Part shown: positions 2,741 through 34,627 of the stretch, piece after piece | How the letters are laid out: each line of letters begins with the position of its first letter | Position numbering within the stretch: position 1 is the stretch's first letter | NCBI GenBank assembly: GCA_937904325.1 | Contig: CALGTK010000327.1 | Coordinates: 1 to 38,672, forward strand | Source: an uncultured Planctomyces sp. | GTDB taxonomy: Bacteria; Planctomycetota; Planctomycetia; Planctomycetales; Planctomycetaceae | Direction of reading: 5' to 3' | Length of the DNA stretch: 38,672 nucleotides | The notes under the pieces: model-generated | Told to the model about the DNA's origin: nothing | Database searches by the model: none | Seen by the model: the letters and a program-made list of their open reading frames with translations, nothing else | Translations under genes and position numbers: made by a program

Positions 2741-4585
2741 TTATCCGAGCGACACTCGCTCCTGCGGATACTGGTACTGGCTGGTCGTTTGGCTTGTTCC
2801 GGCAAGTGCGATCAGTAATGTCAAAGGGCCAACGCGACCGAGAAACATTGTCGCAGCAACGACGAGTTGTGAGGCAGGTGTCAGGTCTCCCGTAATTCCC
2901 GTCGAAGCTCCAACCGTCGCACAGGCACTTGTTGCCTCGTACAGGATGTCGAGAAACGAGAACGAATCGGCCTCGAACACAGTCAGCAGCAAAGTTGAAG
3001 TCATTGTTGCTGTGAGACCCATCGCGACAATAACGAATGCGTAACGGACCTGTTTCTCAGGAATCATCCGGCCGTAGCATTCGACCTGGTTTCGGCCACG
3101 CAGTATCGCAATCAGGGCAAGAACGACGATGGCCAGCGCCACAGTCTTGACACCACCGCCAGTCGAGCCTGGTGAAGCCCCGATAAACATCAGGCCGATG
3201 GAAAACAGCTTGGTCGCAGGATTGAGTTCGCCATGATCGACGGTATGGAAACCCGCGGTGCGGAATGTAACCGATTGAAACCATGCATCCGCGACACGCG
3301 TTCCGAACGTCGCGTCACCTTGCACACCGACTGACTCCAGCACGCCATAAACGAATGTGCCACCGATCAGCAGGATGGCCGTCGTTGTAAGGATGAGCCT
3401 TGGTGAAAGGGGCAATTGTTCGCGCAGGCGGCGGGGGCGGAACAGCGAGGAGGGTTCGCGGTAATTCTGCCAGGACAGCAGTACGGTTGCCCAAAGAGAC
3501 CGCAACGTTCCAAAACCAAGGCTGCCTACGATGATCAGTCCGCAAACAACTCCCCAGACCTGCCACCGAGTTCCCATGTCCAGAAAGCTCTGGCCAGTCA
3601 GTGAGAAGCCGGCGTTACAGAACGCACTGATTGAGTGAAACGTGCCGTAAAATGCGCGGTCGCCGAGTGGAAGATCGCTCCATAGACTGGAAAGTAAAAC
3701 TGCTCCAATCGCCTCGGCGATCAACGTGAAGCTGATAATCGCAATCAGTAATTGCCGGACGTCTCGGACCGTTGATGCTTCCGACACTTCGGTGACAGCG
3801 GCACTTTCGCGAAACGCCAGTCGGTTGCCCATTAGCAGCGCAAACGTCGCGCTCAGACTCATCATGCCCAGACCGCCGATCTGAAACAGAATCATGATCA
3901 CGACCTGGCCGAAGCGACTCCACCAGGCATCAGGCCCCCCCGTCGGAACAACGACCAGTCCGGTTACACATGACGCACTCGTTGCGGTAAAGAAAGCAAG
4001 GCGGCAACGCTCCAACATGGTTACATCGTTGGCTTTTTCGGTAACGCTACCGGGCAGCAGCAAGAGCAGAGTCCCCACAAAAATCAGTCCAACAAATGAC
4101 ACGACAAAGATCATCGCCGGATTACTCCAACTGGTTGTGCGGCTGACAAACTTCAGCAATTGAGCCAGTCCGATCAGCAACAGAAACATCTCGGACCATG
4201 CAACCAGAGCGGCCCCGCGACTACTGCCGTACCAAACGGGCAATACCGGTCCAAATAACAGAAGCACGATCGACCCGGAAATCCAGACTCCCGCAAACAC
4301 GCACGCTCGTCGATGTAGATGGAAGAATTCCGAGCGGTCATCACTCAGATAGACCCTTAAGCTGACAATCGTCGCTCTCACCAGCATCGCCACATACGCG
4401 AAGAGTCCAAATTCCCACAGAACTCCCTCGCCTGAGATGCCATGCTGAAGCACTGTTGAAGCGAGGCCGACGGCGTAAGCGGGAGTGGCCATCACAGTCA
4501 GGCGTTCGAGAATCAAACGAAGCCGGTCTTCGCTTGATCCGCTAGACGACATTCTACCAGACAGGGTTGTCCGTTTGCGTGACAT
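2741..4585 (-). CDS. TrkH/KtrB-family potassium channel subunit
   Basis: An integral membrane protein of 614 residues that would form the K+-conducting pore of a Trk/Ktr uptake system in the inner membrane. All four pore-loop filter segments are visible, each with the expected glycine: SCVTGL (about 205-210), FCNAGF (about 322-327), FRTAGF (about 441-446) and CATVGAS (about 555-561). The GSTGGGVKT stretch (about 473-481) is also typical. The first 150 residues add roughly four hydrophobic segments before the conserved core, so the protein is longer than a standard KtrB of about 450 residues. No RCK-type regulatory partner (TrkA/KtrA) is next to it, so the partner is presumably elsewhere. The start is ATG, with a weak ribosome binding site. 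TrkH and KtrB cannot be told apart by eye, so no symbol is given. Confidence 0.92.
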   Translation of the reverse strand: MSRKRTTLSGRMSSSGSSEDRLRLILERLTVMATPAYAVGLASTVLQHGISGEGVLWEFGLFAYVAMLVRATIVSLRVYLSDDRSEFFHLHRRACVFAGVWISGSIVLLLFGPVLPVWYGSSRGAALVAWSEMFLLLIGLAQLLKFVSRTTSWSNPAMIFVVSFVGLIFVGTLLLLLPGSVTEKANDVTMLERCRLAFFTATSASCVTGLVVVPTGGPDAWWSRFGQVVIMILFQIGGLGMMSLSATFALLMGNRLAFRESAAVTEVSEASTVRDVRQLLIAIISFTLIAEAIGAVLLSSLWSDLPLGDRAFYGTFHSISAFCNAGFSLTGQSFLDMGTRWQVWGVVCGLIIVGSLGFGTLRSLWATVLLSWQNYREPSSLFRPRRLREQLPLSPRLILTTTAILLIGGTFVYGVLESVGVQGDATFGTRVADAWFQSVTFRTAGFHTVDHGELNPATKLFSIGLMFIGASPGSTGGGVKTVALAIVVLALIAILRGRNQVECYGRMIPEKQVRYAFVIVAMGLTATMTSTLLLTVFEADSFSFLDILYEATSACATVGASTGITGDLTPASQLVVAATMFLGRVGPLTLLIALAGTSQTTSQYQYPQERVSLG

Positions 4586-21386: not shown

Positions 21387-22424
21387 TCAGGCGGCATTCT
21401 CTATAGTTTCAAACCGCTCCTGCCACTCGCTGAGATGCTCCAGGCAGATTGCCGCGCCGCGCGCCACCGTGTTCAGCGGCTCATCAGCGATTCGGACTGG
21501 AATACCCAGCTGCTCGTGCATCAGTCGGTCGAGCCCGCGAAGCAATGCTCCGCCTCCGGTAAGAACCATTCCCGTGTCAACGATGTCGGCAACCAATTCT
21601 GGCTTGCAGCGTTCAATGACTGACTTGACGCAGCCGACGATCGATTCAAGTTGCGGATTGAGTGCCTCTCGAACTTCTTCACTGGTCACAACAGCTTTTC
21701 GAGGTACTCCACTGATTGTGTCGAGACCGCGGATGTCGCTGGTAAGTTCCTGCTCAAGTGGGAAAGCGCTGCCAAGTCGAATCTTGATCTGCTCAGCAGT
21801 CTGCGTTCCGACCTTCAACGAGAACTGCTGCTTCATGTAATCGACAATGGCTCCGTCAAGTTTGTCGCCAGCCACGCGAACAGATTCGCTGACGACGATT
21901 TCTCCGAGACTGAGAATCGCAACATCGGATGTCCCGCCGCCAATGTCGCACACCATGCTGGCGATTGGTTCGGAAATCGGAAGCCCGGCACCAATACCTG
22001 CCGCGCGAGGTTCTTCGATCAGATAAATCCGACCTGCCCCAGCTCGTTCAGCACTGTTAAAGACGGCTCGTTTTTCGACCGGAGTAATTCCACCTGGCAC
22101 GGCGATCACAACTCGAGGTCGCATCCCTTTCACGTGCCGGCTGGCCTTCTGAATGAAATAACGCAACATCGCCTCACACTGCTCGAAGTCGGTGATAACT
22201 CCGTCTTTAAGTGGCCGGACGGCGGTGATCGATTCCGGAGTGCGTCCCAGCATTTGCTTGGCGAGCTTACCGACAGCCGCGCCTTTGCCGAGCACTCGAC
22301 GCGTGCCTTTTTGCAGCGCAACAACAGACGGTTCGTTCAGGACGATTCCTTCGCCTTGAATGATGACAAGAGTATTAGCTGTCCCAAGATCAATCGCCAG
22401 ATCCGGGCACAGTCGTTGACGCAT
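21387..22424 (-). CDS. mreB: Actin-like cell-shape protein MreB
   Basis: From ATG 22422-22424 the protein has 345 residues, the usual MreB length, and starts MRQRLCPDLAIDLGTANTLV with the first phosphate motif (DLGTANT). The second phosphate motif is DIGGGTSD and the adenosine motif is VLTGGGALLRGL. MreB forms membrane-bound ATP-dependent filaments that guide wall synthesis. The frame stays open upstream to a TTG at 22596-22598 (58 extra residues, not family-like) and contains a GTG at 22434-22436 that would add four residues. No strong ribosome binding site decides between them, so the exact start is open; ATG or GTG is preferred. First gene of the mreBCD-mrdA operon and divergent from the C39-ATPase fusion. 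Confidence 0.95.
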   Translation of the reverse strand: MRQRLCPDLAIDLGTANTLVIIQGEGIVLNEPSVVALQKGTRRVLGKGAAVGKLAKQMLGRTPESITAVRPLKDGVITDFEQCEAMLRYFIQKASRHVKGMRPRVVIAVPGGITPVEKRAVFNSAERAGAGRIYLIEEPRAAGIGAGLPISEPIASMVCDIGGGTSDVAILSLGEIVVSESVRVAGDKLDGAIVDYMKQQFSLKVGTQTAEQIKIRLGSAFPLEQELTSDIRGLDTISGVPRKAVVTSEEVREALNPQLESIVGCVKSVIERCKPELVADIVDTGMVLTGGGALLRGLDRLMHEQLGIPVRIADEPLNTVARGAAICLEHLSEWQERFETIENAA

Positions 22425-22598
22425 CCAGTTCAACACGCGTGGTTGGCCATCCGTGGTCAGAGTAGGTGAGTCTCGTCGCCAATTCGTGGCGAAGTACGCA
22501 GCCGCTCCTTTTTCGTCGGCCAAACATCCTGCTGCCGCGAATTGGAGTCCGGGTTTGTATCTCGGCAGCGAAAACAGGGCAATATGGGGTTTCAGCAA

Positions 22599-22702
22599 GG
22601 CGATTCACGCGTCAGTACACGGCCGCCCGTTTTCGGTATTGCTTCAAACTGTGTAATTTGTGAGGTATCCATCCGACAAACTTTCCTCACTGACGACCAA
22701 CC
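22599..22702. promoter_or_regulatory. Divergent promoter region between mreB and the C39/ATPase fusion gene
   Basis: This short gap must hold the start signals for the rightward fusion gene; signals for mreB may also lie inside its non-coding upstream frame. An inverted repeat GTGAGG (22660-22665) / CCTCAC (22685-22690) could be an operator or mRNA hairpin ahead of the rightward gene. No convincing -35/-10 pair was found by eye. Confidence 0.35.
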
Positions 22703-25024
22703 ATGCCGAAATTAGTTGCCGAAGAAGTCGCCCGCTTTCTTAAACAGACGTCGCTTTTCGCGATTCTGGACAACAAATCCGTCGACCGAATGGCGAATCG
22801 AACGACGATGCACCGCTTCTCGTTAGGCGAAACGATCATTGAAGAGGGCGACGACGGTCGTTTTGCGTGGCTGATCTTTTCCGGCCGAGTCCGCGTCCTG
22901 AAGCGCTCAGATTCCGGTCGGCAGGTGACTTTAGGAACGCAGACAGTCGGCGAAATCTTTGGCGAGCAATCGATCCTGACCGATTCCCCGCGCAGCGCTT
23001 CCGTCCGAGCCGCCGAAGAAGTTGTTTTATTCCGCATTGACCGAATGGACTTTCTCGATCTCCTGAACAGCTCGCAGAATCTTCGGCAGTACTTCGATCA
23101 GTTTATTCACGAGCGTGCTGTTCGTGATTTTCTCCGAACACAGACGTTTCTGGAAAAGCTCCGAGCCAGGGATGTCATCTCGCTGCTTGACCAACTGCAG
23201 CCTCGCGAGTTTTCTGCCGGCGAGGTCGTCATCCGCGAGAGTACGGCTGCAGACGTCATGTATATTGTGCGGGAAGGCCGGCTGAAAGTTGTTCGTGGGG
23301 CCGGCAAAAACGAAATGCTTCTCGGATGCTTGAGTGCAGGCGATTTTTTTGGCGAACGTGCGTTGCTCACTGACGAATCCAGGTCGGCATCCGTCGTGGC
23401 TGAAACGCCGACTCGGTGTTTTGCTCTCAGCCGCCAGCATTTTGACGGACTCCTGGAAACGTCACCCGCCATTCGTAAACAACTTACCGAGCGATTCTCC
23501 CGCTACGACGCTTCTAACGATTTACTCGTTTCTCCTCGTGATTTACCGCATCCCAAATTCGCAGAGAAGGACCGAGCGGAACTAACACCGCAGGGTGATG
23601 CCTCGCGAGAATCAGACTCGCAGACGTCATCTCAAGACGCGTTAAATAAGGTCCCCATTTCATACGGCCAACGGTATCAGAAACTGCGTTCTGGACCTCG
23701 ATGGTTTGAACCGCTCCCGTGGATCGCACAACAGGACGAGTCAGACTGCGGAGCGGCATCTCTTGCGATGGTTGCTCGGTATTTCGGAATCTGCATTCCG
23801 GTCGAGAGGCTGCGGCGGCTCGCTCAAACCGGCTATGCGGGAGCGAGTCTCTATTTCCTGTCGGCTGCCGCGGCACAAATCGGCTTCCGGCCAAGAGCTA
23901 CTCGTTCAACGGTTGAGCAGATTGCGGAGACTCGATTGCCCGCGATCGCTCACTGGGACAACCGCCACTTTATTGTGCTTTACCGAGTCGACTCTGCCGC
24001 CGATGAGTTTGTCGTCGGAGACCCAGAGCGAGGTCTGCTTAAGCTGACTCGGCAGCAATTCGAAAACGGCTGGTCCGGAAGACTGCTACAGTTGGAGCCG
24101 ACACCCCGACTGGAAGAGCACCCACAGCCAGACTCAATACTCAAACGATTGTTTGTATCGATCCAGAATCGTATTCCGGGGTCAGTCAGTAACCGCGACG
24201 TCAAGAGACCGGTCCTGGAAAGCGAAAAATCGGAGAGGCTAAACAACATACTACCAGTGAACATTCGGCTCGAGAATGTCAGCTACCGATTCTCGACAGA
24301 CGGACGCAATATGCTTTCGGAAATCAATCTCGACGTCCAGACAGGCCAGACGGTCGCCATCGTCGGACGTAGCGGGGCAGGAAAGTCCTTGCTGGCCGCG
24401 GTCCTGCAGGGATCACTGACTCCGACAAGTGGTCGAATCGGAGTAAACGGGAAGACATCGCATCCAGAAAACAGCCTTCGTCCACTTTACAACTATCAGC
24501 TTCTTCGAGAGCGTGACGTGTTTGATGGCCTGACCATCGCAGAGCACATCTCGCTTGATTCCAGCGTAGACCCCACCGACAGAAAGATGATCGCCGCGGC
24601 TGCCGAACTGGCAGAAGCCGATCCGTTCATCAACCGTTTGCCTTACGGATATGACACGCCAATCGGCAACGGCTTCGCACAACTTTCCTCAGGAGAAGGG
24701 CAGCTACTTTCATTAGCCCGAGCAGCGTTAATGGACGCTCCGCTGTTAGTGATGGACGACTCCCTTTCGGCTTTGCCTTCTACTCAGGCACGTCGAATCC
24801 TGCTGCGACTGCGAAACTTTACAACTGCCGACGAAGGACACGGGCCCGCCCACGAGCGAACATTCATCGTGACGTCACGAAACATCGCCACCATACGAGA
24901 CGCCGATCAGATCGCTGTTCTGGACGACGGACATCTCGTCGAATCGGGAAAACACCATGACCTGATTGCTCGTGATGGTCTCTACAATTTCCTCTGGCAA
25001 GAACGCTCACTTCAGATGAGCTGA
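22703..25024 (+). CDS. Double cNMP-binding + C39 peptidase + ABC ATPase fusion lacking a membrane domain
   Basis: A 773-residue protein in one unbroken frame. Residues 10-135 and 145-260 are two cyclic-nucleotide-binding folds (FGEQSILTDSPRSASV; FFGERALLTDESRSASV). Residues 335-465 form a C39 peptidase with the triad C349 (DESDCGAAS), H422 (NRHFIVLYRV) and D440 (VVGDPERG). Residues 520-770 form an ABC ATPase with Walker A GRSGAGKS (555-562), a signature written LSSGEGQ (661-667) and Walker B LLVMDDS (D685). Family knowledge: C39 exporters and cyanobacterial HetC-like proteins put a six-helix membrane domain between peptidase and ATPase. Here only about 55 hydrophilic residues separate them, and no membrane segment is present. 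The ATPase also departs from the norm: D686 replaces the catalytic Glu and S725 stands near the expected switch His. A soluble regulatory or processing role is possible. The start ATG has no clear ribosome binding site. Confidence 0.85.
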   Translation: MPKLVAEEVARFLKQTSLFAILDNKSVDRMANRTTMHRFSLGETIIEEGDDGRFAWLIFSGRVRVLKRSDSGRQVTLGTQTVGEIFGEQSILTDSPRSASVRAAEEVVLFRIDRMDFLDLLNSSQNLRQYFDQFIHERAVRDFLRTQTFLEKLRARDVISLLDQLQPREFSAGEVVIRESTAADVMYIVREGRLKVVRGAGKNEMLLGCLSAGDFFGERALLTDESRSASVVAETPTRCFALSRQHFDGLLETSPAIRKQLTERFSRYDASNDLLVSPRDLPHPKFAEKDRAELTPQGDASRESDSQTSSQDALNKVPISYGQRYQKLRSGPRWFEPLPWIAQQDESDCGAASLAMVARYFGICIPVERLRRLAQTGYAGASLYFLSAAAAQIGFRPRATRSTVEQIAETRLPAIAHWDNRHFIVLYRVDSAADEFVVGDPERGLLKLTRQQFENGWSGRLLQLEPTPRLEEHPQPDSILKRLFVSIQNRIPGSVSNRDVKRPVLESEKSERLNNILPVNIRLENVSYRFSTDGRNMLSEINLDVQTGQTVAIVGRSGAGKSLLAAVLQGSLTPTSGRIGVNGKTSHPENSLRPLYNYQLLRERDVFDGLTIAEHISLDSSVDPTDRKMIAAAAELAEADPFINRLPYGYDTPIGNGFAQLSSGEGQLLSLARAALMDAPLLVMDDSLSALPSTQARRILLRLRNFTTADEGHGPAHERTFIVTSRNIATIRDADQIAVLDDGHLVESGKHHDLIARDGLYNFLWQERSLQMS

Positions 25025-25110
25025 CGAAAATCCCACGAGTAGTAGTCGCGTTTCGCAAACACACTAAACTGCTTCCGCGATCGGGACTCTGGCCGATCAT
25101 CCACATGTTC

Positions 25111-25116
25111 AGAGGA
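25111..25116 (+). promoter_or_regulatory. Ribosome binding site of the acyl-CoA synthetase gene
   Basis: AGAGGA lies 9 bases before the ATG at 25126, favouring that start over the in-frame ATG at 25105, which overlaps the site. Confidence 0.6.
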
Positions 25117-25125
25117 ACGGATGCC

Positions 25126-26790
25126 ATGAGCGAATGGAATAACCTGTGCACGATGCACCGCTCGCAAAGCGAACGTTTTGGCAATCGTGTGGCGATGCGA
25201 CATCCTCAGGATGGGCTGTACCACGACCTTGCCTGGAACAGCTATCGCAGACAGGCTGACCAGGCAGCTTCTGGACTCATCGATCTCGGCATTCAAGTCG
25301 GAGATCGAGTGGTTATTCTTTCGGAGAATCGATTCGAATGGCTGATCGCCGACCACGCGATCCTCAGTTCCGGCGGCGCGGATGTGCCACTTCATGCTCC
25401 GCTTTCGCCGAAGCAGGTCGAGTATCAGGTTGGGCATAGCGAAGCTCGCGGGATCATCGTCGGCGACCAGGCTCAAGCTGACAAAGTCTTTGCAGTTCTC
25501 GACAACCTTCCATCGCTGGAGTTTCTCATTTCGTTCGACGAGATCGACGTACCGAATTGTCGACTCAAGACTCTTACCTGGCAGGGATTAAAACATTGTT
25601 CCGGGACGATCAGTATCGAAGAAATCGCACGTCGAGAAGAATCACTCGAAGAAACCAGCCTCGCAACGATCATCTACACCAGCGGCACAACGGGAAATCC
25701 CAAGGGCGTCATGCTGACTCATGGCAACCTGTTGTGTAACGCAAAATCGACCAGCGATATTTCGTTCGTATCGACTGACGACGTGCTGCTGAGCTGGCTG
25801 CCCTACAGCCATATTTATGCTCGTACGGTCGACCATTACCTCACTTCAATCGGTGGACTGACGGTCGTACTGGCTGAGTCTGTCGACACCCTCATGGACA
25901 ACATTAAGCAGGTTCAGCCGACCTGGCTGACCGCCGTACCGCGTGTTTACGAGAAAGTCTGGAACGCCGTCGGGACGCTCGACCAGGAAAGTCGCACTTC
26001 CGCACTGCGGTCAATATTCGGGTCGCGAGTAAAGCAGTTAACGTCCGGCGGTGCTCCCCTGCCCCGCTACATTGCCGAAGGGTTCTTCGAATCTGGTATA
26101 CCTCTGCTCGAAGGGTATGGGCTGACAGAAAGCTCGCCGGTTATCGCATTTAACAGTATTGAGAATTACCGACTCGGCTCCGTCGGTCAGGCGTTGGGCG
26201 ATGTCGAAGTGAAAATCTCAGACGGCGGCGAAATTCTGACCAAAGGCCCGCACGTCATGACGGGCTACTGGAAAAATCCCGGCGCTACGACCGAAACGAT
26301 CGTCGACGGCTGGCTGCACACCGGCGACGTTGGCCGCCTCGATGAAGACAGCTACCTCTTCATCACCGACCGAATGAAAGACCTGTTTGTCACTTCGGCT
26401 GGAAAAAACATCGCCCCGGCGGAACTCGAACGAATCCTCAGTCGCGACAAATTCATCGACCAGGCCGTCGTCTATGGAGACGGTCGCCAGTTCGTCAGCG
26501 CGCTGATCGTGCCGAGCTTCGAAACGATTCAGACGCTCGCCGACGAAAACGGCTGGACGATCGAATCCAACAATGACTTTATCACGACTCCTGAATTGCT
26601 GTCGTTTCTCGATGAACGAGTGCAGGCGATCATGCAGCAAGTCAGCCAGCCGGAACGAGTGAAACGTTTTCTCACGCTGGCCCGTCCGTTTCAGGTGGAA
26701 AACGAAGAGTTAACAGCAACACTGAAAGTCCGCCGCCGCCACATCATCAGCCGCTACGAAGAATACCTCGCCGCTCTCTATGAAAACTGA
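25126..26790 (+). CDS. AMP-binding long-chain fatty-acid-CoA ligase-like enzyme
   Basis: A 554-residue enzyme of the ANL superfamily, closest by eye to FadD15/long-chain acyl-CoA synthetases. The ATP/AMP-binding P-loop is IIYTSGTTGNPKGVMLTHGN (about 176-195). Later motifs are LPYSHIYAR, the acyl-adenylate-binding GYGLTESSPV, the hinge Asp in GWLHTGDVGRLDEDSYLFITDR (split across the A8 region), and KNIAPAELE. It would activate a fatty acid to acyl-AMP and then acyl-CoA in the cytoplasm. The usual C-terminal catalytic Lys of the family is probably the one in LTATLKVRR near the end. The enoyl-CoA hydratase-like gene follows by 169 bases on the same strand, which fits fatty-acid metabolism. Confidence 0.9.
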   Translation: MSEWNNLCTMHRSQSERFGNRVAMRHPQDGLYHDLAWNSYRRQADQAASGLIDLGIQVGDRVVILSENRFEWLIADHAILSSGGADVPLHAPLSPKQVEYQVGHSEARGIIVGDQAQADKVFAVLDNLPSLEFLISFDEIDVPNCRLKTLTWQGLKHCSGTISIEEIARREESLEETSLATIIYTSGTTGNPKGVMLTHGNLLCNAKSTSDISFVSTDDVLLSWLPYSHIYARTVDHYLTSIGGLTVVLAESVDTLMDNIKQVQPTWLTAVPRVYEKVWNAVGTLDQESRTSALRSIFGSRVKQLTSGGAPLPRYIAEGFFESGIPLLEGYGLTESSPVIAFNSIENYRLGSVGQALGDVEVKISDGGEILTKGPHVMTGYWKNPGATTETIVDGWLHTGDVGRLDEDSYLFITDRMKDLFVTSAGKNIAPAELERILSRDKFIDQAVVYGDGRQFVSALIVPSFETIQTLADENGWTIESNNDFITTPELLSFLDERVQAIMQQVSQPERVKRFLTLARPFQVENEELTATLKVRRRHIISRYEEYLAALYEN

Positions 26791-31266: not shown

Positions 31267-34200
31267 TCAGTCCTGATCGTCAAAGACCGCTCTCAACAGG
31301 TTGTCGACGGGAGCGTAGTCGTCCGTCAGGATCAACCCGCGTGATGTTTCAATCATCGAATCCATTTGACCGGTCGTCGTTTTTTTTCCATCGGAAGAGG
31401 TGTGCAGCGTGGCGAACGGCGGCGTGTCCCAATGTTCGCCGTGCGCTGCCAATCTCAGAACGTCGATCTGCTTCATCGAGGCGACGATCACAAACGTGTC
31501 GCGAACATTCGATGGTGTTCCGTGAGCGGTGCTGAACACGTAAACGTTCGGAAAAACTTCACCAAGAGTGACCGTGCAACTACTGAGGAATCTGCCGACT
31601 TCCGTTTTCTTTGAATCCTCAAAAGCCGCCAGCACAGCTTCTTTAAATTTCTGGCTGCCTGGTCCCGAAGCGTCCGCAACAAGACGGTCACACAAGGTTC
31701 CCGGCATGACTCCTCGTATGGCAATTCGGTATTTTCCTCCCTGGTAAGGCAGTACTTCGACGCCACCGTAGTTTTCAGGAGCGAATTTCCAGGCGAGCAT
31801 CAGCCCCGGATCGAGCATCAACTCGCTGGGTATCCCGCTCGAGAAGACCTGCCCCACTGCTTCGTCATCGTTGGATGCTTCACTGGAGTCGTCGCCAACG
31901 GAAGCGATCTGCCCTTCACCGATCGGTGTCAACGGCCAGGCGTCGATCACGTTGATCAGATAAACGCCAGACTCAAGATTCAACAAGGCTTTGATCTTCT
32001 TGTTAAATTCGAGCGTCGTCAGATGCCACGGCACACTGAAATCGTTGAATGCATCGCCGTAGACGAAGTCATATTGCACTGTTGCCTCGCCATTGGATTT
32101 ACGAGCGTCGTTATCTCTCATCAGATCATCAACGACGTTGCGGGCGTCTCCGATCAACGTACGCACGACGGTGTGGCTATCCGGAGGCAAACCCATTTCT
32201 TTCTGAACAGCCAGCTTGACGGCGGGGTCAAGCTCCGCAACATCGATGCGTGACTTGTTGGAGAATTCGCTTTCGATCCATCGGGGAAAGACAAATCCGC
32301 CGCCACCAATAAAGAAAGTACTGACCTGCCGCGACTCAGTCATCAATTGGTCAACTGCCTGCTTCCAGGCGATGCTCTTGCCGATGTCACCAACCGAACA
32401 CAGTCGCGTAACATCTGCGTCATTGAGCACGCGGAAGGCGTTGAGAGATTTGAAACTCGGCTCAAAGGTCAACCGATCTTTAAGGAATTCGTCTGCGTCA
32501 GCCCCCCGCGGAAGTTCGCTCATTTCGACGGAACTAAGTCCACCCCAAAGCGGATCGCGAGTGGCTTCAGCCAGTTCTTCGATTGACAGCCAGAAGTCTC
32601 CATGCGGCGACGCCTTCAGAAGTTGCTCGCGTCGTTGAAGCGTCAGCACACCCTGGATAGTAAGTTCGCCTGATTCGAGGTCAACTTTCGCCCACGCCGG
32701 CAGTCTCGTCGTCAATTCACTAAGTCCATCGAACGGCTCGAGGATAATCGTTGTTTCCCGTGCCCAGCCCGTGGCGACTCGTTCGGTGACCTCGGCGTAA
32801 ATCTTTTCGTACTCGTAGTAGAGCTTTGACGGCTGTTCCGGGTTGAAGTAACTGTGGACGAGTTTGTCGAGTCGCAACTGCCGGACAACTTCGCCGTCTT
32901 CCAGTGTGTCGCTGACATTGACGTACGAGTAGTTGCTTTCGTCGTGGTACTCGTCCGTCTGATCTCCTCGAAGAAAGCAGTAAATGCCCAGCGAATGCAG
33001 GTGGTACCCCAACTCCTCGCCGTGTTCACGCCAGCGATCAATCGTCGCTCGATCGAGTCGCTGCTCGTCGATAATGGCCTCAATCGAGGCTCGGAGCCCT
33101 TCCTTGAAGTGCTCCCTCAAACCGTTGCGGACCCACTTCTTGAATTCTTCCGTTGCTTCCTTATCAAGTGGCGACAGCTTCCCGGAATTTGCACGCTTCA
33201 GCAGCTTTGTCCGCATTGTCTTGTGAAGTTGTTTGCTGTCTTCGTCCTCGTACCAGTCCGCTAAATCCTGAATCGTTTCGTCCCGTTCGGCGTTCCAGTG
33301 GCCGATCTTTTCTCCGATTTCTCCGACCATTCCTGAAGTGACCGAGGCCGCAGCCGTTGTCACAACCAGAAACTGCAACCAGCCAAAGCACACGGCTGTG
33401 CGAAACAAAATCTGCTTTGACGAAACCGCAACGCCGAGCAAAGCCAGAAGCGCGGCAGTACCGCCGATAATCATGCGAGTTCCGAACACATCGATCAGCC
33501 AGAAGCCGGTCAGGAATGTTCCGACGATCGAGCCGAACGCTCCCCATGCGTAAACGTTGCCGACAGTGCTGCCCGTGTACTCACTTCGGTCGAGCGCAAT
33601 GCTGGCCACAACGGGTGAGATCGTGCCCAGTGCCAAAGCCGGCAGGAAGAACATTTCAGCGACGGTCAAGAATACCCACATCGGCCAGTCAACGTCGTCT
33701 GGACGAGTTCTTCCGGCAGCAAGTTGGTCAAGCCATAACACACTCAAGCTGGCAATGCTGGCGAGCAAAAATAGTCGGCCGAGAACCTTTTCGCGATCCA
33801 TGCGATCGGCTATCCACCCTCCGAGAAAATTGCCAATCGTAATTCCGGCAAGCACGACCCCGATGACCGACGTCCAGGTGTAAAGCGAACTACCAACGTG
33901 CTTGGCAATCAGCCGAGAAGCCGTCAGTTCGAGAACCATCACACAGACACTGGAAACAAACACAATCAGGTTGCACGCCATCGGGTTCAGCACGGCAGCC
34001 TGCTTCTTCCGCCGCATCGAAGACTTCTTCGAAATCGTTACCCGAGGCGGATCGACTTTTTCAACACGGTGCCATTCCGGGCCAGCCGTTTCCCAGGACT
34101 CAGACGGATTCAAGAGGGAATACTCTTCGCCGGTTGGCACAGCGGCAGTCTGCGAATCTATTTTGATGTCCGAATCGTACGGCCTGATCGCTGGCGAGTT

Positions 34201-34302
34201 CTCATCGCCGGACTCAGGCTTCAGTGGCATCGTGTTCGGCTCGGCGTCGCTGCTCGAACCAGCGTCGTCTTCTGACGGCAAGTCGACATCGGAATCAGTC
34301 AT
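31267..34302 (-). CDS. Membrane (MFS-like) protein fused to a spermidine-synthase-like domain
   Basis: From ATG 34300-34302 the protein has 1011 residues. After a polar, acidic N-terminus (about 1-100), roughly eight hydrophobic helices follow (about 108-330), with the typical opening VMVLELTASRLIAKHVGSSL and GGWIADRMDREKVLGRL. A large hydrophilic insertion (about 330-690) separates this from a Rossmann-like SAM/dcSAM domain: STFFIGGGGFVFPRWIE, VAELDPAVK, IGDAR, then YDFVYGDAFNDFSVPWHL. The ending ILTDDYAPVDNLL matches spermidine-synthase-like proteins. True aminopropyltransferase activity is doubtful; such fusions are common in planctomycetes and related bacteria with unknown substrates. The frame extends upstream to a GTG at 34399-34401 (33 more residues), less likely than the ATG. 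Confidence 0.82.
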   Translation of the reverse strand: MTDSDVDLPSEDDAGSSSDAEPNTMPLKPESGDENSPAIRPYDSDIKIDSQTAAVPTGEEYSLLNPSESWETAGPEWHRVEKVDPPRVTISKKSSMRRKKQAAVLNPMACNLIVFVSSVCVMVLELTASRLIAKHVGSSLYTWTSVIGVVLAGITIGNFLGGWIADRMDREKVLGRLFLLASIASLSVLWLDQLAAGRTRPDDVDWPMWVFLTVAEMFFLPALALGTISPVVASIALDRSEYTGSTVGNVYAWGAFGSIVGTFLTGFWLIDVFGTRMIIGGTAALLALLGVAVSSKQILFRTAVCFGWLQFLVVTTAAASVTSGMVGEIGEKIGHWNAERDETIQDLADWYEDEDSKQLHKTMRTKLLKRANSGKLSPLDKEATEEFKKWVRNGLREHFKEGLRASIEAIIDEQRLDRATIDRWREHGEELGYHLHSLGIYCFLRGDQTDEYHDESNYSYVNVSDTLEDGEVVRQLRLDKLVHSYFNPEQPSKLYYEYEKIYAEVTERVATGWARETTIILEPFDGLSELTTRLPAWAKVDLESGELTIQGVLTLQRREQLLKASPHGDFWLSIEELAEATRDPLWGGLSSVEMSELPRGADADEFLKDRLTFEPSFKSLNAFRVLNDADVTRLCSVGDIGKSIAWKQAVDQLMTESRQVSTFFIGGGGFVFPRWIESEFSNKSRIDVAELDPAVKLAVQKEMGLPPDSHTVVRTLIGDARNVVDDLMRDNDARKSNGEATVQYDFVYGDAFNDFSVPWHLTTLEFNKKIKALLNLESGVYLINVIDAWPLTPIGEGQIASVGDDSSEASNDDEAVGQVFSSGIPSELMLDPGLMLAWKFAPENYGGVEVLPYQGGKYRIAIRGVMPGTLCDRLVADASGPGSQKFKEAVLAAFEDSKKTEVGRFLSSCTVTLGEVFPNVYVFSTAHGTPSNVRDTFVIVASMKQIDVLRLAAHGEHWDTPPFATLHTSSDGKKTTTGQMDSMIETSRGLILTDDYAPVDNLLRAVFDDQD

Positions 34303-34627
34303 GAGTGGGTCCGGAAGTTGAGTCCGCGGGGTGATTTCGTGGGCGGGAACACCGATCAGTCGAGCATACCACCCTGTACAATCCGACGCTCGCTCAAACA
34401 CCCTGCATAGTCGGGCAGCAAACGGTCAGTCACTTCAGTCACTTCAGTCACTGGTCATCAACCGCGGATTACGCGGATAAGTTCGGACAAGTGCTCGACA
34501 TTTCCAAACTTTAATAAACACAACGGGACACGAATACAGACACGTTAAATCTACAGTAATTCACTTATTCTTTGTGTCCGTCCATCGAGAGCTGTCGGCA
34601 GAACCAGAACGGCGATTCCAGAAAGTT
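34303..34627. other. Intergenic stretch with short repeats
   Basis: No gene is seen. It should include the promoter of the leftward fusion gene. It holds three tandem copies of the 9-mer CAGTCACTT (34427-34452, the last ending in G) and a small dyad CCGCG-GATTA-CGCGG (34462-34476). The remaining 150 bases are AT-richer and featureless by eye. Confidence 0.5.
34427..34452. repeat. Three tandem 9-bp repeats (CAGTCACTT)
   Basis: Two exact copies of CAGTCACTT are followed by a third with the last base changed. Too short and too few for CRISPR; may be a simple-sequence expansion or protein-binding sites near the fusion gene promoter. Confidence 0.7.

Follow-up and report, generated by a model that had tools for sequence, protein, structure and literature searches.

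The window (the whole 38,672-nucleotide stretch of planctomycete DNA analysed here) encodes a 773-aa protein that combines two cyclic-nucleotide-binding (cNMP) domains, a C39 peptidase domain and an ABC ATPase. On balance, this is probably a former peptidase-containing exporter (PCAT) with a HetC-like layout. Precise loss of the membrane domain would have turned it into a nucleotide-controlled C39 cysteine protease of the cytosol. The gene and its domains are as follows.

22703..25024, + strand: cNMP-cNMP-C39-ABC protein, 773 aa, without a membrane domain (single open frame, Pfam, orthologue, dN/dS)
22811..23068, + strand: cNMP domain 1, about residues 37-122 (Pfam PF00027; limits read from alignment)
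23204..23461, + strand: cNMP domain 2, residues 168-253 (Pfam PF00027; structure matches)
23717..24106, + strand: C39 peptidase, residues 339-468, with Q343, C349, H422 and D440 (Pfam, alignment, dN/dS)
24113..24250, + strand: hydrophilic linker, short (residues 471-516); relatives have a membrane domain of about 300 residues at this place (alignment)
24257..25006, + strand: degenerate ABC nucleotide-binding domain, residues 519-768 (Pfam, invariant-site comparison)

A Pfam search identified two cNMP stretches (PF00027, E 9e-47), a C39 domain (PF03412 at 339-468, E 8e-31) and ABC_tran at 538-687 (E 2e-22); ABC_membrane (PF00664) was not identified in the protein. No 19-residue window reached a Kyte-Doolittle mean of 1.6, the criterion used for a membrane helix, and the maximum (1.53) lies within the C39 domain. 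Both analyses agree with the initial annotation, which had read two cNMP domains, a C39 domain with the triad C349/H422/D440 and an ABC ATPase from one frame that lacks a membrane domain.

The phosphate-binding cassettes of the cNMP domains are FGEQSILTDSPRSAS, with E88 and R97 retained, and FGERALLTDESRSAS, with E218 and R227 retained. PKG and PKA regulatory domains are among the best solved-structure matches of both. These are thus PKA/PKG-type domains as judged by the Glu and Arg of the cassette, with putative binding of cAMP or cGMP. In the alignment, Q343 and the triad occupy the positions of the catalytic residues in PCAT1 and LahT, whose roles are described in PMC6959990 and PMC6363468, and the C39 domain of PCAT1 matches that of the window protein with an E value of 3.5e-18. 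Presence of the Cys-His-Asp triad and the Gln predicts cleavage activity by a C39 cysteine protease. The predicted structure (three-row alignment) has a mean pLDDT of 42 and is unusable beyond the cNMP domains. The protein shares the C39 peptidase domain with PCATs and the N-terminal cNMP domains with HetC-like PCATs, and has neither the exporter membrane topology nor functional ATPase motifs. As it is without a membrane domain and intact ATPase motifs, two PCAT-defining features, it should not be filed as a transporter. A second C39 match in the window's genome is weak (30.8 bits) and lies in a 293-aa frame (G000:C38:14843-15295).

We identified an orthologue of the same length in a genus-level relative (G064). 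It is 82% identical without gaps, has the same layout and sits at the same locus, between mreB and an acyl-CoA-ligase-like gene. G064 is very probably the same genome as that of the public MAG contig CALSLT010000017.1 (locus L010). Between the two genes dS is 0.54 and dN/dS 0.19 overall. By part, dN/dS is lowest in C39 (0.06), the most constrained domain of the pair, followed by the cNMP domains (0.11 and 0.09), the linkers (about 0.24) and the ATPase (0.29). From this pattern, we conclude that selection has kept the membrane-free form since the species split. Assembly error or local deletion is ruled out by the independent orthologue, which also has no membrane domain, a pseudogene by the dN/dS, and chance architecture by the identical length and layout together with the dN/dS. 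The membrane-free gene is known in two species only, and was lost in a third.

Other matches to the cNMP-cNMP-C39 order are in full-length frames. The family sample (170 genomes, all that the order holds) has them in four genomes, all within frames of 1056-1071 aa; an even sample of the phylum (392 genomes) added four, in frames of 1021-1045 aa, and a genome scan one more, in Elusimicrobia. These relatives are 29-42% identical to the window protein over the cNMP-C39 part. The initial annotation had proposed that close homologues with a membrane domain would point to a local deletion; only such distant ones have it. Six planctomycete and Elusimicrobia exporters (G046, G012, G023, G522, G191 and L011), aligned in full, share the domain order, including two cNMP domains, but unlike the window protein they have a membrane domain of about 300 residues (3-6 hydrophobic segments in place of the linker) and canonical ATPase motifs. 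PF00664 was found in all four relatives scanned with Pfam. The window protein parallels the exporters in the alignment as far as the stretch that precedes helix 1, and the match picks up again immediately ahead of the ATPase; this order and these junctions fit an internal deletion. Because all other relatives are peptidase exporters, with a membrane domain in each one examined fully, the domain was most likely excised in this lineage from a peptidase-containing exporter. The genome-wide scan reached close relatives only, and similar excisions may exist elsewhere.

The exporters of G046 and G191 adjoin an HlyD-type gene. Close to that of G191 there is also a gene for a double-glycine peptide whose leader is of textbook form (ELSSKQMGAVIGG), hydrophobic residues occupying -4, -7 and -12. 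The small protein encoded there (L045:13453-13695 and G191:C126:1-195) has a double-glycine leader (MASIKIEDLATEAQELSSKQMGAVIGG...) and no NCBIfam match. Its gene follows the HlyD-type gene of the full-length exporter at a distance of about 1.6 kb, and a second copy, 88% identical, is elsewhere in that genome. This protein is likely an export substrate of a cNMP-containing planctomycete exporter. No relative of it was identified in the window's genome or G064. Apart from one match at 3400-3534, which is implausible, the window, L010 and L047 contain no double-glycine peptide gene near the gene of interest.

The diagnostic motifs of the ATPase are as follows.

24365..24388, + strand: Walker A, GRSGAGKS, residues 555-562, intact (alignment)
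24683..24697, + strand: signature, LSSGE for LSGGQ, residues 661-665 (LSAGE in the G064 orthologue)
24743..24778, + strand: Walker B, LLVMDD, in which D686 takes the place of the catalytic Glu; D-loop SALP for SALD (D to P692)
24878..24880, + strand: R726 at the switch-histidine position (invariant-site alignment)

The signature, catalytic Glu, D-loop and switch His are replaced in both species. The Q-loop Gln is probably Arg602 in the window protein and is Gln in the orthologue, with uncertain gap placement. The intact Walker A, the signature change and D686 are as initially described; the D-loop change is additional, and the residue that aligns with the switch His is R726 (H to R) rather than the S725 named there (A to S). 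Among ATPase sites invariant in the six exporters, 37 of 90 are altered in both membrane-free proteins, compared with 4 of 33 in C39 and 3 of 27 in the cNMP domains (ATPase versus the rest, Fisher p = 1e-4, with sites only partly independent). The stem branch of the ATPase measures about 1.6-2.0 substitutions per site, compared with 0.05-0.3 for the end branches of the six exporters; the C39 stem branch is 1.24, against 0.36-0.65 in four singly placed PCATs, and the cNMP stem branch is not longer than those of relatives. Thus, the ATPase motifs have decayed selectively, most likely after excision of the membrane domain. The degenerate ATP sites of heterodimeric exporters such as TAP1 and TM287 likewise have Asp in place of the catalytic Glu and no switch His. 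Such sites can still bind ATP, and are partnered by a canonical site in a membrane transporter. Unlike them, the window protein also has a degenerate signature and D-loop, and no membrane part.

The gene is flanked by two genes.

21387..22433, - strand: mreB, 348 aa, divergent from the window gene (this adjacency is not kept across the genus)
25105..26790, + strand: AMP-binding ligase resembling long-chain acyl-CoA ligases; follows the window gene in the same orientation

A conserved start at 25129 (MSEWNNLC) is the probable one for the ligase, as the upstream extension (window 25105-25129) contains stops in the G064 orthologue. In a third genome of the genus (G063), the gap of about 660 bases between mreB and the ligase holds only a short 5' remnant of the gene, corresponding to residues 12-37 (about 57 bases, 86% DNA identity), that adjoins an inserted palindromic repeat; thus, we conclude that the gene was lost there. 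The repeat at the loss site (CATGCCCGCGCAGGCGGGCACCCAG..., L024:5820-5990) has similar copies in L028 of G031. No homologue of the window gene was identified in G031 or G061 (both at least 93% complete), in which mreB and the ligase are on different contigs with other neighbours. The cell-envelope link that had been suggested from the position next to mreB is therefore not supported: the arrangement is not conserved, with a remnant in one genome and absence from two. The orthologous loci share a conserved sequence upstream of mreB (AACAGGGCAATATGGGGTTTC, window 22540-22600). It seems to be present also upstream of the G031 mreB, which has a different neighbour, and is possibly a promoter or leader element of mreB. 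Elsewhere in the window, a 1043-aa frame (31267-34401) has a weak MFS_1 match over part of its length only.

Comparison with characterized systems suggests how the protein may work. HetC of Nostoc PCC 7120 has the same progression from N-terminal cNMP to active C39 to C-terminal ABC ATPase (C39 activity being predicted in the window protein), and its soluble N-terminal part alone has protease activity (PMC10986499). Unlike the window protein, HetC retains the membrane domain and needs the catalytic Glu of its ATPase (PMC10986499); one cNMP domain is described in HetC, rather than two, and it bound ppGpp, not cAMP (PMC10986499). PCAT1, LahT and ComA share the C39 fold, the triad and Gln, and exporter-type ATPase ancestry, but have no cNMP domains and require the membrane domain for export; in PCAT1 that domain, which the window protein is without, is also required for full protease activity. 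We found no published C39-ABC protein without a membrane domain in the open part of PubMed Central.

In the proposed mechanism, binding of a small nucleotide (cAMP, cGMP or ppGpp) to the tandem cNMP domains would be the signal that switches C39, and C39 would cut a cytosolic peptide or protein behind a glycine-type site. Efficient ATP hydrolysis would have been lost, the intact Walker A may still bind ATP, and the ATPase may have been retained for dimerisation or as a structural part, no longer as a motor. The many class III cyclase domains in both genomes (8 and 12 matches) make a cyclic nucleotide signal plausible. The positions of A55 and I59, leader-groove residues tested in PCAT1 (PMC6959990), are L383 and S387 in the window protein. 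The nearest exporter (G046) has the same two residues, and a similar peptide might therefore be recognised. We infer the protease activity, ligand, ATP binding, substrate and direction of regulation. More tentatively, it is possible that loss of the membrane domain turned an ABC exporter into a cytosolic signalling protease in which the cNMP pair senses a second messenger, the hydrolysis-dead ATPase serves as an ATP-bound clamp or dimer switch, and C39, uncoupled from export, cuts an intracellular target.

Several other explanations bear on origin and partners. Instead of excision from one PCAT, the origin could be a recent fusion in which a cNMP-C39 piece was joined to an unrelated ABC ATPase. 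The ATPase branch is long, and the best ATPase tree groups it with the G046 and G012 PCATs at weak support (55/31); a tree with a distant outgroup gives it no firm position. A fusion is unlikely, though the weak support leaves room for it. Against it, G046 is the closest exporter both in the N-terminal part (42%) and in the ATPase (42-44%), whereas exporters of the window's own genome reach only 30-38% in the ATPase, the best tree places it among PCATs, and the order and junctions are those expected of an internal deletion. A split exporter, in which the window protein would contribute the peptidase and ATPase and another protein the membrane subunit, had been offered as an option by the initial annotation and is very improbable. 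Membrane and ATPase domains of PCATs are separable in principle, and a search with a relative's membrane domain matched one ordinary exporter in the window's genome (membrane part 23% similar). That exporter has its own ATPase, however; no orphan PCAT-like membrane subunit was identified in the window's genome or G064, where the query had no match at all. In addition, residues for ATPase coupling are lost (Q-loop region, D-loop, signature and switch His), and there is no HlyD-type gene beside the window gene, unlike those of G046 and G191.

The C39 domain could instead hold leader peptides or glycine-tailed proteins without productive cutting, with release controlled by nucleotide binding, so that the protein would be a peptide-binding or sequestering regulator. 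Excised C39 domains can act alone, as shown by LahT150 (PMC6363468) and the N-terminal part of HetC (PMC10986499), but that of PCAT1, once disengaged, is barely active when the transporter core is missing (PMC6959990). PCAT peptidase domains can be weak in isolation, and a membrane-free form could be a poor protease unless adapted. Catalytically dead C39-like domains serve as substrate-binding modules (PMC10986499), and the faster evolution of C39 on the stem means that specificity may have changed or that the role may be binding only. We nevertheless regard such a regulator as rather unlikely, as the full triad and Gln are present in both species in the domain under most constraint. Least probable of all is an exporter remnant with no present function that is heading for loss. 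The truncation in G063, the degenerate ATPase motifs and absence from two nearly complete genomes of the genus would be expected of it; the identical frame length in two species at this dS, with low dN/dS (lowest in C39), is not. These values imply coding constraint since the species split and leave only very recent decay in the window strain. A soluble, nucleotide-regulated peptide processor, the other option of the initial annotation, thus seems the best fit to the evidence, as read from sequence comparison.

In PCAT1, cutting is strictly coupled to export, since the peptidase does almost nothing when it is away from the membrane core. If our reading is true, a membrane-free relative maintained by selection would show that evolution can break this coupling, and would offer a C39 protease for study that is soluble and switched by a ligand. 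It would also exemplify in nature an ABC ATPase domain retained after loss of transport, and would provide a test of the effect of cNMP domains on the peptidase in HetC-like exporters. Because the channel is missing, the ATP motor looks broken, and the cutting and sensing parts have been kept by selection, the findings suggest conversion of an exporter to a soluble, signal-regulated protease in two related planctomycetes.
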